IMG/VR virus record: IMGVR_UViG_3300042503_001271
Span: 1 to 20,254 of that record
Origin: a virus
DNA: 20,254 bases
Reading direction: 5' to 3' (one strand)
The position numbers were made by a program, and so were the translations under genes. How positions within the stretch are numbered: position 1 is the first letter of the stretch; each line of letters opens with the position of its first letter. The notes beneath the pieces were generated by a model. The model was not told where the DNA came from, did no database searches, and saw only the letters and a list, made by a program, of their open reading frames with translations. This document shows, piece by piece, positions 8,030-18,643 of this stretch.

Positions 8030-8881
8030 TTAATATCTAGTTTTTATATTAGATTTAGTTAAATATGTTTGTACTGGGCTTTCTTTACCAAATTCTTTAG
8101 CTAAGAACTCCTTAACTTTTTCTATGTTTTTTAAGTCGTCGTCAGAAAACCCTATTTTTGGTATCACAAAATTATTGGACACGTCATTTTTGAACAATAC
8201 TTTCCCACCCAAATCCATTGACAACTTTTTTACATATGAAATAAAATCCCTCAAAGCAACGATTTTCCCTTCTTCAGGATTTGCTTCAGCTCCTGTACCA
8301 AATGAAACAGGATGGAATTTACACATATCCAAATATTCTTTTATTAATGTTTCGTCATCTTTAATATCTTCACCTGATAATTCTCTATAGTCTTTAAGTG
8401 ATTGAACTAATTTTTCTTGGTCCAAACCACCAATATCGTTTTTAATTAAACGGTACACCGCTTCTTTTAGAATCTCAGGGTTGTGACCCCTTGCGGTGAT
8501 TATTGCAAAAATTGACCCTCCATTGATACACTCAACAAAATCGTTCCATGATGGACCAAAACTTGCCACCAATACATCTTCCAAAAATTGTTGTTCACCT
8601 TCACCTCTGAAGTTTCTGAAAGGATTTGATGCGTAACCAACTACGTTTTTACCGTTATATACAAAAGGTTCTTTACCTAATTGATGTCTATATTCGGCAA
8701 AATCTTCAGTAGAAATACCTAATTCATTACCTTCATTATCTACCACCATAATCTTTGTTGGCATGTTCATTACATTATCATCCCAATCAAAAGCATAGTA
8801 TTTGTTGTCAGGTAACTTTTCAGGGTCTAAACCTTCATAAATACGTAATAAATTTTTTCTAACAATTTTTTCTAAAATCAT
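8030..8881 (-). CDS. HAD-superfamily phosphatase-like protein
   Basis: A 283-aa protein with the HAD hydrolase motifs in order: motif I FDWDDNVM (residues 31-38, nucleophile D32 and D34), motif II IITARG (T129), a lysine candidate for motif III near K206 (EEGKIVALRDF), and an acidic motif IV-like GFSDDD (244-249). HAD enzymes usually dephosphorylate small phosphoesters or DNA ends; T4 Pnk/PseT has a HAD 3'-phosphatase domain, but no kinase domain is present here. The about 85 residues between motifs I and II would hold a cap domain. The start overlaps the stop of a 47-aa gene as ATGA, so the two are translationally coupled. It sits between sheath and tube, unlike the T4 order. The substrate is unknown; a DNA- or nucleotide-end phosphatase is a guess. 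Confidence 0.7.
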   Translation of the reverse strand: MILEKIVRKNLLRIYEGLDPEKLPDNKYYAFDWDDNVMNMPTKIMVVDNEGNELGISTEDFAEYRHQLGKEPFVYNGKNVVGYASNPFRNFRGEGEQQFLEDVLVASFGPSWNDFVECINGGSIFAIITARGHNPEILKEAVYRLIKNDIGGLDQEKLVQSLKDYRELSGEDIKDDETLIKEYLDMCKFHPVSFGTGAEANPEEGKIVALRDFISYVKKLSMDLGGKVLFKNDVSNNFVIPKIGFSDDDLKNIEKVKEFLAKEFGKESPVQTYLTKSNIKTRY

Positions 8882-14128: not shown

Positions 14129-15898
14129 ATGTCCGATAGTGTAACAATAGAATCATCACTTTTGGTTGAACAAAAGGCTCTTAAGATATTAGAGACCTAT
14201 GATGGTGCAAATAATTACATACTAAAACTTAAGTCAATATACGGACCAAATAAAAAAGGAATACCAACAAGAAGTCAATGTGAATATGTTATTTCACATT
14301 ATAATTCAGTTCCAAAAGTTGCAAGAAAGTGGGTCGAACTTGATTCTTATTTTTCAGAAAAAATTGCAAACGAAAAACTTTATACCGAACCACCAAAACA
14401 AGTTTGGGTTGAAAAGTTATTGGTTGAAAAAGATAAATCTTATCATGTTTGGGGTAAATTTTTTGAAAGTGAGCAGTTAACTGATTTTTGGATTCCAAAA
14501 GTTGCCATTATTAAAAACCCTGAACAATACTATAAAGAAGTTGATTTTTCAAAGTATTCACATAGACCAATGTTATCCCATCAAATTGAGGCGGTAAATA
14601 AATTGGTTAGAACTAAAAGATTTATTTTAGCTGATGACATGGGTTTGGGGAAAACAACTTCAACCGTTGTTGCCGCTTTAGAAACAGAAGCAAAAAAAGT
14701 TTTAATAATTTGTCCCGCATCTTTAAAAATTAATTGGCAAAGGGAAATTCAAAACTATACCGATAGACCAATTTATATTTGTGACGGAAAAAAATATGAA
14801 GATTCAGATTTTGTTATTGTCAATTATGACATCATCAAAAATTTTCACGACCCACAAAATAAAGAAAATTCACTAATATTAAAAAGTAATTTTGATTTAA
14901 TAATAATTGATGAAGCACATTACATTCAAAATAGTTCAGCACAAAGAACAAAATTAATTAATAGTTTTGTTAAAGATGTTGACCGTCTTTGGTTATTAAC
15001 AGGAACACCAATGACATCAAGACCAATGAACTATTACAATCTTTTGAATTTAATTGAGTCTCCCGTTGCTGCAAATTGGATGGCATATGTTGTTAGATAC
15101 TGTAATGGTTATCAATTTAAAGTTGGAAATAGGAAAGTTTGGAATGTTACAGGTGCATCACATTTAGAAGAATTAAGAGATAGAACATCAAAACAAGTAT
15201 TAAGAAGATTAAAAACGGATGTTTTAGATTTACCTGATAAAATTATTACACCCGTTTATTTGAGATTAAAATCAAAAGAATACGAAGAATTAATGGGTGA
15301 ATATTATGATTGGTATGATAAAAACCCTGACGAAAGCGGTTCACTAACGGTTCAGTTTACAAAACTGACAAAAGTTAGACAAGTAATTGCAAAAGAAAAA
15401 ATAAACTCAACAATAGAATTAATTGAAAACATATTAGAACAAGATAAAAAAGTAATAGTTTTTACAAACTTTACTGAAACATTACAAACCATACATTCAC
15501 ATTTTAATAAAAACTCTGTTCACCTAGATGGTTCTTGTAGTCCAAAACAACGACAAGATGCTGTAGACAGATTTCAAAATGATGAAAACGTAAAAGTATT
15601 TGTGGGTAACTTAAAAGCTGCTGGTGTTGGTATAACACTTACGGCAGCTGAGGCGGTAATTATGAACGACTTATCATTTGTACCATCAGACCACTCACAA
15701 GCTGAAGATAGAAGTTATAGATATGGACAAAAATCAAATGTGTCCGTTTACTATCCAATATTTGAAAATACAATCGAAGGAGTTATATATGATATTTTAA
15801 ATCATAAGAAAAATATTTTTGAAACCGTAATGGGTGATAATATATCAAGAGCCGACATTGTACAAGAAATTATGTCTCAAATACATGACCGTAGGTAA
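14129..15898 (+). CDS. SNF2-family (superfamily 2) helicase/ATPase
   Basis: A 589-aa DNA-dependent ATPase with a full SF2 motif set: HQ (151-152), Walker A ADDMGLGKTT (168-177), motif Ia IICPASLKINW, Walker B DEAH (261-264), motif III TGTP (291-294), motif IV VFTNF (444-448), motif V GVGITLT (499-505) and motif VI QAEDRSYRYGQ (524-534). The MGLGKT and QAxDRxxRxGQ forms place it in the SNF2/SMARCAL1-type group rather than with T4 UvsW. Such proteins translocate on double-stranded DNA and remodel forks or recombination intermediates. The first 140 residues are a separate region with no domain I recognise. It probably works in phage replication or repair. The start at 14129 gives MSDSVTIESS; no Shine-Dalgarno is seen. 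It is followed after 42 bases by the dismutase-nuclease gene. Confidence 0.92.
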   Translation: MSDSVTIESSLLVEQKALKILETYDGANNYILKLKSIYGPNKKGIPTRSQCEYVISHYNSVPKVARKWVELDSYFSEKIANEKLYTEPPKQVWVEKLLVEKDKSYHVWGKFFESEQLTDFWIPKVAIIKNPEQYYKEVDFSKYSHRPMLSHQIEAVNKLVRTKRFILADDMGLGKTTSTVVAALETEAKKVLIICPASLKINWQREIQNYTDRPIYICDGKKYEDSDFVIVNYDIIKNFHDPQNKENSLILKSNFDLIIIDEAHYIQNSSAQRTKLINSFVKDVDRLWLLTGTPMTSRPMNYYNLLNLIESPVAANWMAYVVRYCNGYQFKVGNRKVWNVTGASHLEELRDRTSKQVLRRLKTDVLDLPDKIITPVYLRLKSKEYEELMGEYYDWYDKNPDESGSLTVQFTKLTKVRQVIAKEKINSTIELIENILEQDKKVIVFTNFTETLQTIHSHFNKNSVHLDGSCSPKQRQDAVDRFQNDENVKVFVGNLKAAGVGITLTAAEAVIMNDLSFVPSDHSQAEDRSYRYGQKSNVSVYYPIFENTIEGVIYDILNHKKNIFETVMGDNISRADIVQEIMSQIHDRR

Positions 15899-15913: not shown

Positions 15914-15924
15914 TATTTATTTAT
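15914..15924 (+). promoter_or_regulatory. Tandem overlapping TATTTAT motifs upstream of SOD-fusion gene
   Basis: Plus strand TATTTATTTAT holds two overlapping copies (15914-15920 and 15918-15924), 16-20 bases before the ATG at 15941. It suggests the fusion gene has its own late-type promoter rather than relying only on helicase read-through. Confidence 0.4.
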
Positions 15925-15940
15925 TATAAAAGAAAAACTT

Positions 15941-17503
15941 ATGAAGTTAAAAAAGTTAGAAGCCGAAATAGAAGAAGTTCAAAGCATAATAGAAGGTATC
16001 GAAAACAAAAACGAGAAACTTTTAACAGAGCAAAAAGAAATTATCGAAGAAATGAAAAAAATTGGTATTGAAAAATTACCATATTCATATTCTTCTCTCC
16101 AAAGATTTATTGACCCAAAAACAATGAATGTTCATTATAACAAACATTACAAGGGTTACGTTGATAAACTAAACAAGGCATTAGAAAAAGTTAAAGGTGC
16201 CGATTTGGAACTTGAAGAAATCATTAGAGGTATTTCAAGATACAACAAAACGGTAAGAAATAATGCGGGTGGTGCGTTTAACCACGCATTGTTTTGGAAA
16301 ATGTTAACACCAAAAAGACAAAAAATTAAAGGCGAAATCTTAGAAAAAATTATCAAAGATTTTGGAACATATGAAGAATTTAAAAAACAATTCATAGAAA
16401 AAGCAAAAACAAATTTTGGTTCAGGATGGTGTTGGTTGATTATTTCTAAAAGTGGTAAATTAAAAATTATTACAACACCAAATCAGGACAATCCATTAAT
16501 GAATGTTATTAAAGATGGGGGGTACCCAATTTTAGGATTAGACCTTTGGGAACACGCATATTATTTAAAATACCAAAATAAAAAAGACGAATATATTGAT
16601 AAATTTTTCTTGGTTATAAATTGGGAATTTGTTAATTCTTTGTTTCTTTCTCGAACTGAAAAGAAACTCAATGAAGAAAAATTAATGAATCAGATTTTAA
16701 CTGAAGGTCAAAAAAGTGAAGGTTGTAATTCAACACAAGTAAGAGAAATTAATAGATTATTTTCAACCAATCCGCAAGTTAAATATAAATTTATGAATAC
16801 TATTAACGGTATTTTAAAAGATGTTTATCCTGAATATTGGAAAGAAAAAGACCAATATGAACCAGGTTCAATGTCAGGAATATATGATTTTGGAACACAA
16901 GGTCGTTCAGTTATTAATAAATTAAATACAAATTATAGTTCATTCTGTATTCTAATGAATGACCTCAATATTTTTTTAAAATCAAAAGGACACAAACCAA
17001 TTATGTTTAGTCACGACAACAAACAACAACAATTAGAAGAGGTTGAAAGATTTAGTGAGTATTTGGTTATGTTAAAAGATAGAATTTTTAATTTGTCTAC
17101 TTCTAAAACACTTCAAGAAATCATGAAAAAACTGAAGGAAACTGATGCTAGAGGTGAAAAAAGGGAAGACGAAACAATAATTCAACTTAGAAAAATCTTT
17201 AATACCGATGATGTAAATAAAATTGGTGGTCTTGGTAGTGAAGAAGATATGATATCAGGTGTTGATGCTGTTATTAATATTGATGGAAAAAGATTAACCG
17301 CACAAATAAAACCATTCAGTTATATCAAAGAAATATCTCCAACTGAAGTTATGGTTTTTGGTGCTAGTGCACCAAAAAAATATAAGACTGATTTTATTGT
17401 ATTTAACAACACAAGTAAAACAGTTGTTTTTAAAAATGACAATACAAAAATATTAGATGGAAATTACGTTTTCCCAAAAGAAAGCGAAATTAAATCTGTT
17501 TAA
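15941..17503 (+). CDS. Fe/Mn superoxide dismutase fused to a PD-(D/E)XK-like nuclease domain
   Basis: A 520-aa multidomain protein. Residues 1-42 form a Glu/Lys-rich coiled coil. Residues about 44-236 are an Fe/Mn superoxide dismutase: LPYSYSSLQRFI, HYNKHYKGYV, NNAGGAFNHALFW, FGSGWCWLI, NQDNPLM, LDLWEHAYYLKYQN. All four metal ligands are present (H65, H115, D201, H205), as are the second-sphere Tyr73 and the Gln182 typical of manganese enzymes. Free enzymes are about 200 aa, so the rest is extra. Residues about 240-400 are a helical linker with no recognised family. Residues about 405-520 show an acidic helix, then GVDAVINIDGKRLTAQIKPF, a D442-x12-Q455-x-K457 core of the PD-(D/E)XK fold, and further strands. 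Dismutase chemistry is well supported; nuclease activity is inferred. The gene ends 12 bases before the gp13-like start. Confidence 0.88.
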   Translation: MKLKKLEAEIEEVQSIIEGIENKNEKLLTEQKEIIEEMKKIGIEKLPYSYSSLQRFIDPKTMNVHYNKHYKGYVDKLNKALEKVKGADLELEEIIRGISRYNKTVRNNAGGAFNHALFWKMLTPKRQKIKGEILEKIIKDFGTYEEFKKQFIEKAKTNFGSGWCWLIISKSGKLKIITTPNQDNPLMNVIKDGGYPILGLDLWEHAYYLKYQNKKDEYIDKFFLVINWEFVNSLFLSRTEKKLNEEKLMNQILTEGQKSEGCNSTQVREINRLFSTNPQVKYKFMNTINGILKDVYPEYWKEKDQYEPGSMSGIYDFGTQGRSVINKLNTNYSSFCILMNDLNIFLKSKGHKPIMFSHDNKQQQLEEVERFSEYLVMLKDRIFNLSTSKTLQEIMKKLKETDARGEKREDETIIQLRKIFNTDDVNKIGGLGSEEDMISGVDAVINIDGKRLTAQIKPFSYIKEISPTEVMVFGASAPKKYKTDFIVFNNTSKTVVFKNDNTKILDGNYVFPKESEIKSV

Positions 17504-17515: not shown

Positions 17516-18643
17516 ATGGCAATTATTCAAGAACCCGAAAGAAGTAGACTATACAGAAGAATAAGAAATCTTCTTGGAGCACCTGTTAGAGGTGTTGAGT
17601 TGGAAGACGAACAAATGGATTCGTTAATGGAACTCGCTATTGGTGACTACACACAATACGTATTAAATTGGTTAATTGATTCTCAATGGACATCACTTAA
17701 CGGTTTAAACTTAGATGAACGTTCAGTCGCAAACGCACTTATTACCCGTAGTTTAGATTGGGAAACACAATATACTTATGCATATTCAAAGATTGTTGGA
17801 TTACAAGCTGGAGGTCCTTGGGTTTTGAAGAAAGATTATTTTGACTTGGTACCAAACCAACAGTTATATGAAATTCCTAAAGGCAGAGAAATCAACGAAT
17901 TATTATGGTTTTCAAGAGCAGAATTAAATGATACGTTTTTTGACCCATTTATGGGTGGATTGTATGGATTTGGCGGTACAGGTTTAGGTGGCCCTTCAGG
18001 ATACGCACAATTTGGTGTTGGTGGAAGTTATTTTATGATGCCAGCATTTGACGTTCTTTTAAGAATGGCTGACAGAAATATTAAACAAAGAATTATTGTT
18101 GGTGATTTAACCTATAGAATTACCGCTGCTCCTGATGGTAAAAAAATAGTTCATTTATATAATACACCTGGTGGTAGATTTGATTTTTCAAATATCACTT
18201 TTAATCAATATAGATGTTGGTATTGGTATTACGATACAACAGATGGTGATAGAGATAATTGTTTGGCACAAAATCCTGATATTGTTAAATTGCCTTCGGA
18301 CATACCATTAGAAGAACTTTCTTGGTCTGAATTAAATGTTCCTGCACAACAATGGGTTAGAAGATGGTTTACCGCATATTGTAAAGAAACTCTTTCTCGT
18401 ATTTGGGGAAAATATAGTGGTAATCTTAAAACACCCGATTCTGAATTAACGTTAGATTTCGCATCTTTGGCGACTGAAGCTAAAGACGAAAGAGCAAAAC
18501 TTATTGAAGAATTAATTGGGGCTGAAGGACAACTCACGAGATTAAGACCTGAAAAAGTAATGGAAAGAGAAGCTTTATTAGCTGAAAATTTAAATAAACA
18601 ATTAAAATTTAGGGCGTTCCCTGGAAATTATTACGTGATTTAA
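17516..18643 (+). CDS. Neck protein, gp13-like
   Basis: A 375-aa structural protein. The N-terminus RLYRRIRNLLGAPVRGVELE followed by DEQMDSLMELAIGDYTQYV is the helical start I associate with T4 gp13-type head-completion/neck proteins and related connectors. Residues about 140-175 are a Gly/Phe-rich loop (GGLYGFGGTGLGGPSGYAQF). A beta region follows, then a long C-terminal helical part beginning WSELNVPAQQWVRRWFTAYC and ending in Glu/Leu-rich helices. T4 gp13 is 309 aa. It would sit on the portal after packaging and receive the tail with gp14. Here it is on the plus strand, 3.4 kb from the gp14-like gene and opposite to it, unlike T4 where the two are adjacent. Its stop overlaps the next start as TAATG. 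Confidence 0.6.
   Translation: MAIIQEPERSRLYRRIRNLLGAPVRGVELEDEQMDSLMELAIGDYTQYVLNWLIDSQWTSLNGLNLDERSVANALITRSLDWETQYTYAYSKIVGLQAGGPWVLKKDYFDLVPNQQLYEIPKGREINELLWFSRAELNDTFFDPFMGGLYGFGGTGLGGPSGYAQFGVGGSYFMMPAFDVLLRMADRNIKQRIIVGDLTYRITAAPDGKKIVHLYNTPGGRFDFSNITFNQYRCWYWYYDTTDGDRDNCLAQNPDIVKLPSDIPLEELSWSELNVPAQQWVRRWFTAYCKETLSRIWGKYSGNLKTPDSELTLDFASLATEAKDERAKLIEELIGAEGQLTRLRPEKVMEREALLAENLNKQLKFRAFPGNYYVI

Follow-up and report, generated by a model that had tools for sequence, protein, structure and literature searches.

An open reading frame (ORF) encoding 520 residues, in a 20,254-nucleotide stretch of viral DNA (positions 1 to 20,254 of IMG/VR virus record IMGVR_UViG_3300042503_001271; hereafter the window), appears, with a probability of roughly two in three, to specify a head-cargo precursor of an uncultured T4-like phage, packaged and cut by the prohead protease. 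Expressed along with the structural genes, the precursor would be steered into the prohead core by its N-terminal helix (residues 1-37), and a gp21-type prohead protease would cut it after E37 and E255, releasing a native-length Mn superoxide dismutase (SOD; residues 38-255) and a nuclease of the PD-(D/E)XK fold (residues 256-520). As with T4 Alt and IPI-III, both products would be retained in the capsid and delivered into the host alongside the DNA. The dismutase would most likely clear superoxide during take-over (or guard packaged DNA), and the nuclease would most likely target host, competitor or defence DNA; each single use considered for the nuclease, whether against host or rival DNA or as a restriction decoy, is proposed with less confidence than the precursor itself.

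The borders between the parts carry this reading. In all 41 distinct propeptides, [LIV]xE supplies the last three residues before the SOD domain, and at the neighbouring offsets -4 to -7 of the same propeptides it is found 1, 0, 0 and 0 times. Counted by cluster (70%), the motif precedes SOD in 37 of 37, whereas 2000 shuffles gave 2.3 on average and never more than 9; in an independent set of neighbourhoods picked by the neck gene, it stands exactly at this border in 39 of 41 distinct borders. The middle residue is free (N, T, L, V, S, F, I, E, A or M). In 34 of 35 fused sequences the linker holds [LIV]xE, its Glu placed 6-7 residues ahead of a Cys that is conserved in the nuclease (31 of 32 in the scored set, with a null mean of 4.9 and maximum of 12, plus three further fused sequences). 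In every free-standing nuclease checked, the same site ends a short N-terminal leader: LILLTE/KAEKC in L293, TLVLSE/SKAEKC in L311, MKNSFVLNE/EKVTKC in L336 and MKKLSMLLTE/S in L053, where L numbers denote loci and the slash marks the border; a leader is present in L054 as well. A cut after E37 would leave M38, the usual start of an SOD, and a cut after E255 would leave the nuclease as it is found free-standing. The (L/I)xE that marks T4-type capsid-targeted cargo is kept across relatives at the predicted mature borders, and residues 1-37, described as a coiled coil in an earlier sequence-only reading of the window, look instead like a removable propeptide.

A Peptidase_S77 protein, of the T4 gp21 family, is encoded in seven of 14 long contigs of relatives (all partial), and a gp23-type capsid protein in eight; in G007, a 272-kb contig (L160-L173), portal, protease, acidic scaffold and capsid genes are clustered. 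Full-length capsid proteins of relatives contain (H/F)LINE/A near residue 60, a putative cleavage site whose place is comparable to E65 of T4 gp23 (FLTE65/A), and similar sequences occur at the starts of T4 gp24 (MAKINELLRE/S) and IPII/IPIII (MKTYQEFIAE/A). In T4, gp21 cuts gp23 after residue 65, removing 65 residues (PMC9958956), and the cut sites of Alt are ITE-6 and LTE-619 (PMC5694885). Capsid targeting resides in the first ten residues of IPIII, whose processing stops when Asp replaces the Glu of the cut site; fusions to the capsid-targeting sequence (CTS) bring foreign enzymes, including nucleases, into T4 heads and hosts, and both IPI and Alt exert their effects in the host once ejected (PMC9026906). 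With the CTS-targeted, gp21-processed and ejected T4 proteins IPI, IPII, IPIII and Alt, the window protein has in common an N-terminal leader ending in (L/I)xE, a T4-type protease and gp23-type capsid protein in relatives, and non-conserved, swappable cargo. It differs from them in that a single precursor would hold two cargo enzymes separated by a predicted internal cut, in the nature of that cargo (a dismutase and a nuclease), and in that its packaging is a prediction.

The locus itself behaves as cargo might. A first IMG/VR scan found the same domain order with the same synteny in 25 loci, and an SOD scan found at least 579 viral stretches, of which 80 were kept, all in the same neighbourhood. 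An independent survey took 80 neighbourhoods picked by the neck gene, not de-replicated: SOD is present in 77 of them, three are without it, and in 32 SOD and nuclease share one ORF. Because the fusion recurs in the 25 IMG/VR loci and in 32 of the 80 neck-picked loci, it is neither a chance event nor an assembly join. With SOD in 77 of the 80, the impression that SODs are rare in phages fails for this group. The SNF2 helicase adjoins in all loci read that reach far enough, in keeping with the earlier placement of the gene between a SNF2 helicase and a neck gene. SOD and nuclease are separate neighbouring genes in L336, L341 and L343; L053, L293 and L311 have the nuclease by itself, and many loci with these neighbours have SOD either unaccompanied or combined with other domains. 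In L053 the order is SNF2, two ORFs, a 283-residue nuclease-like ORF, neck and DNA polymerase B. Elsewhere SOD is joined to an N-terminal domain of about 160 residues with HEWxH (metallopeptidase-like) or to C-terminal domains of 340-375 residues, some with GxD...QVK-like cores of their own; searches with these N-terminal and C-terminal domains gave no firm family match. Domains of one or both kinds accompany SOD in L075 (3524-5662), L085, L094, L109, L122 and L133, and L109 apparently has two tandem nuclease-like modules with an (L/I)xE-containing stretch between them. Such shuffling of modules at one locus is what would be expected for head cargo. Since (L/I)xE is conserved at both borders, relatives encode a gp21-type protease and unfused relatives exist, we favour a precursor that is cut apart over the single working dismutase-nuclease enzyme of the sequence-only reading; of the four roles which that reading had listed, a virion-packaged enzyme fits best and a redox-gated nuclease worst.

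That an SOD and a PD-(D/E)XK fold are present in one protein is close to certain. The ORF is present and open, as first called. Its dismutase part matches the Pfam models Sod_Fe_N at residues 43-122 (6e-22, 78.4 bits against a cut-off of 27) and Sod_Fe_C at residues 130-233 (2e-38, 131 bits against a cut-off of 20.9), its best PDB sequence match is the MnSOD of Sphingobacterium sp. T2 (6gsc, 5.6e-60), and Foldseek with the full-length model gives the same MnSOD assignment. H65, Y73, H115, Q182, D201, H205, W163 and E204 do not vary among 71 distinct phage SOD domains; the intact ligands, Tyr73 and Gln182 first noticed in the window are therefore a property of the whole set. With three His and one Asp as ligands, the active-site Tyr and the Mn-type Gln, the domain belongs to the Mn-type Fe/Mn SODs and, judged by its invariant residues, is apparently a functional enzyme. 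Fold, ligands and second shell are common to it and the Sphingobacterium enzyme, and in a tree the phage SODs nest with cellular SODs that are mostly from Bacteroidota. Unlike the bacterial enzymes, 37 phage SODs form one separate group (support 100/100) on a long stem (0.69) and have an extra propeptide and fused modules. The cellular SODs in the tree were chosen by similarity, so Bacteroidota as SOD donor or as phage host are suggestions only. A small number of fusion copies (L042/L015, L044/L018, L039:3317-4880) carry frameshifts or miss part of the SOD, with H65 and H115 absent from L018; assembly error and decay are candidate causes.

Virus-encoded SODs are found elsewhere. Chlorovirus PBCV-1 packages one (PMC7019647), the late protein A245R, but this is a Cu/Zn enzyme of unrelated fold and metal from a eukaryotic virus, with no such fusion or processing. 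Single SODs are present in Vibrio phage 2.275.O and in PA5oct, where gp223 (L356:1935-2483), annotated as hypothetical, is an SOD of diverged sequence in which all four metal ligands are retained and the usual Gln is missing. The electrospray tandem mass spectrometry (ESI-MS/MS) mark on gp223 was rejected as proof of a virion SOD, being shared with ribonucleotide reductase and thymidylate synthase in the same record.

The full-length AlphaFold model, built on a shallow alignment, was mediocre (predicted local distance difference test, pLDDT, 73), and the nuclease half was therefore remodelled with 27 diverse sequences that share 24-84% identity with the window protein (adding 255 to an alignment number gives the window number). 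The model of residues 256-520 reached pLDDT 90.6 with a predicted template modelling (pTM) score of 0.80. In it the helical part and the core form a single folded unit. E409, D436, D442, Q455 and K457 are invariant in 27 of 27 aligned sequences, down to 24% identity, and include the D-x12-QxK core (D442, Q455, K457) picked out at the start. Against PDB, Foldseek ranks 1-18 are all PD-(D/E)XK enzymes (I-Ssp6803I, Hjc-type resolvases; probabilities 0.47-0.99), which, with the invariant E, D and QxK residues, bears out the PD-(D/E)XK-like assignment; scores are modest (best E 0.014, none below 0.001) because the core alone matches. The homing endonuclease I-Ssp6803I and the archaeal Hjc Holliday-junction resolvases have the core fold and the E-D-QxK signature in common with the window protein, but the overall match is weak (template modelling score, TM, about 0.35-0.52 on target) and the helical N-lobe here, some 145 residues, is unmatched. 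Core fold, acidic residues and (E/Q)xK place the protein in the superfamily; the fold assignment is good, and nuclease activity is predicted from it.

Searches of Pfam, PHROG and PDB sequences with the C-terminal half gave no match above cut-off, and no named subfamily was assigned. A scan of bacterial and archaeal genomes with the nuclease half gave 0 matches; when named phages were searched by tblastn with the C-terminal half, only two huge-phage records matched (26%), and one more was reached by way of L054. Distant relatives of this half occur also in the unrelated huge phages LR756501 and LR745206. The best viral structure matches are a 1113-residue marine phage protein and A0A6J5L953, a 501-residue "superoxide dismutase [uncultured Caudovirales phage]" whose predicted structure holds the same C-terminal fold (E 8.4e-22, TM 0.88 on query); the annotation of the latter names the dismutase only, and a description of its nuclease part or processing was not found. 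Elsewhere in one contig, at L296:516-1529 (minus strand), the nuclease module occurs a second time, in diverged form and again with a short leader (MKIILSE/S).

Expression with structural genes is suggested by an upstream element. A T4 late promoter of the TATAAATA type was sought: TATAAAT lies upstream of 0 of 12 window genes, and TATTTAT is there instead, within 70 bp upstream of eight of the 12 (null mean 0.6, maximum 3), among them SOD, neck, sheath, tube and hub. It precedes 35 of 38 distinct SOD genes (dinucleotide shuffles: mean 2.1, maximum 7) and is missing upstream of the SNF2 helicase gene. By its distribution, TATTTAT would be a promoter element of the structural-gene class, a candidate late promoter of this phage group.

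Several explanations compete with a packaged and processed precursor. The protein might stay uncut in the infected cell, its dismutase protecting or redox-gating a nuclease that partners the neighbouring SNF2 helicase during DNA processing. The constant helicase neighbour and the conservation of both active sites would suit this, yet the modules are found apart or in other combinations in many loci, (L/I)xE is kept within otherwise variable linkers, and the helicase gene lacks TATTTAT; we consider it improbable. The same slim chance is given to an ordinary auxiliary metabolic gene against oxidative stress, with border motifs that are by-products of helical linkers and nothing packaged. Full conservation of the catalytic residues and the single SODs of Vibrio phage 2.275.O and PA5oct are compatible with it, but position-specific motifs far above shuffles, an upstream element common to structural genes, and free-standing nucleases with the same site as an N-terminal leader speak against it. 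A structural or assembly protein of the virion (of neck or head completion, for example), with the SOD fold reused as a binding module, seems very unlikely: the gene adjoins the neck gene and is near-universal in the group, but a binding module would not need the ligands, Tyr73, Gln182, W163 and E204 that are invariant in 71 SODs, and at least three loci have no SOD at this position. Somewhat less doubtful, though still unlikely, is a packaged and cut protein whose PD-(D/E)XK part blocks or decoys a host restriction enzyme and cleaves no DNA in the host. T4 IPI, which inhibits the GmrSD restriction enzyme after ejection, sets the precedent (PMC9026906, PMC9958956), and no active nuclease inside a full head would have to be silenced; the complete retention of E409, D442, Q455 and K457 down to 24% identity points to catalysis instead.

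Other observations weigh against a packaged precursor. The (L/I)xE motif is short and lies within helices rich in E, I and L; in G007, N-terminal motifs are mildly more frequent than in shuffles genome-wide (70 against 54 of 299 ORFs), a figure we did not use as support. The motif before SOD is displaced by a few residues in L298 (QIDE/AKKET) and L336 (NIFE/ANYK), and the L070 linker has no [LIV]xE site. The 20-kb window holds no protease or capsid gene, and an active nuclease within a full head would need silencing. Finally, it is from domains, catalytic residues, border motifs, the protease and capsid site of relatives, the shared TATTTAT element and the occurrence of the modules apart from one another, all read directly from sequence, that we infer targeting, both cuts, packaging, ejection, both activities and a benefit to the phage.

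Table 1. Parts of the predicted precursor and its neighbours, in window coordinates.
Feature	Position	Strand	Remarks
SNF2-type helicase	14129..15898	+	constant neighbour upstream of locus
Putative late promoter element TATTTAT	15914..15920	+	5' of the 520-residue ORF; also at sheath, tube, hub, neck and other structural genes
520-residue ORF	15941..17503	+	propeptide, Mn-type SOD, linker, PD-(D/E)XK-like domain; open, intact
Predicted N-terminal propeptide, residues 1-37	15941..16051	+	helical, very variable among relatives; (L/I)xE motif at its end
(L/I)xE motif I35-E36-E37	16043-16051	+	closes propeptide
Mn-type SOD, residues 38-235	16052..16645	+	ligands H65, H115, D201, H205
Variable linker, residues 236-255	16646..16705	+	(L/I)xE motif at its end
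(L/I)xE motif L253-T254-E255	16697-16705	+	predicted second cleavage site
Predicted nuclease product, residues 256-520	16706..17500	+	helical N-lobe (about 256-400) and PD-(D/E)XK core
PD-(D/E)XK-like core, residues 404-512	17150..17476	+	from alignment and fold search
Core residues	E409 (17165), D436 (17246), D442 (17264), Q455 (17303), K457 (17309)	+	
Head-tail adaptor (neck) gene	17516..18643	+	constant neighbour downstream of locus

Motifs of the same form were seen on other proteins. In G007, families of near-identical N-terminal tags occur on otherwise differing proteins (for example L171:14152-18341, minus strand), all with (L/I)xE: MKRIIRLTE/SDLARIVRRVINEE (about nine copies), MKELIRHILKE/ET and MKIIITEKQYNRLTE/D. 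They may be capsid-targeting tags carried by dozens of cargo proteins. A protein with a HAD-like motif, YYAFDWDDN, encoded beside the sheath gene (window 8030-8881, minus strand; L165:15139-15969, minus strand), has (I/L)xE before its conserved start (RIYE/G; IITE/I) and is a further candidate for head cargo.

Processing of head cargo by the prohead protease is already known from T4; a search of open-access papers returned no description of this protein or of a near-universal two-enzyme dismutase precursor in a phage group. Taken together, the loci suggest, at about even odds, a large group of T4-like, uncultured phages whose hosts are probably Bacteroidota and in which the locus between the SNF2 and neck genes is dedicated to cargo. 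There a near-core SOD would be the constant module of swappable precursors (with nuclease, HExxH metallopeptidase-like or other PD-(D/E)XK-like partners) that are cut by the prohead protease and injected, so that infection would open with an antioxidant enzyme and a variable set of weapons. If this is true, superoxide removal at infection is important enough in this group for a near-universal, particle-delivered enzyme, and what host superoxide does during phage infection becomes directly testable. Multi-enzyme precursors cut by the prohead protease would join the known routes of head loading, (L/I)xE borders would provide a sequence rule for spotting other injected enzymes in uncultured phages, and there would be a hint of a redox-based side to the conflict between phage and host.
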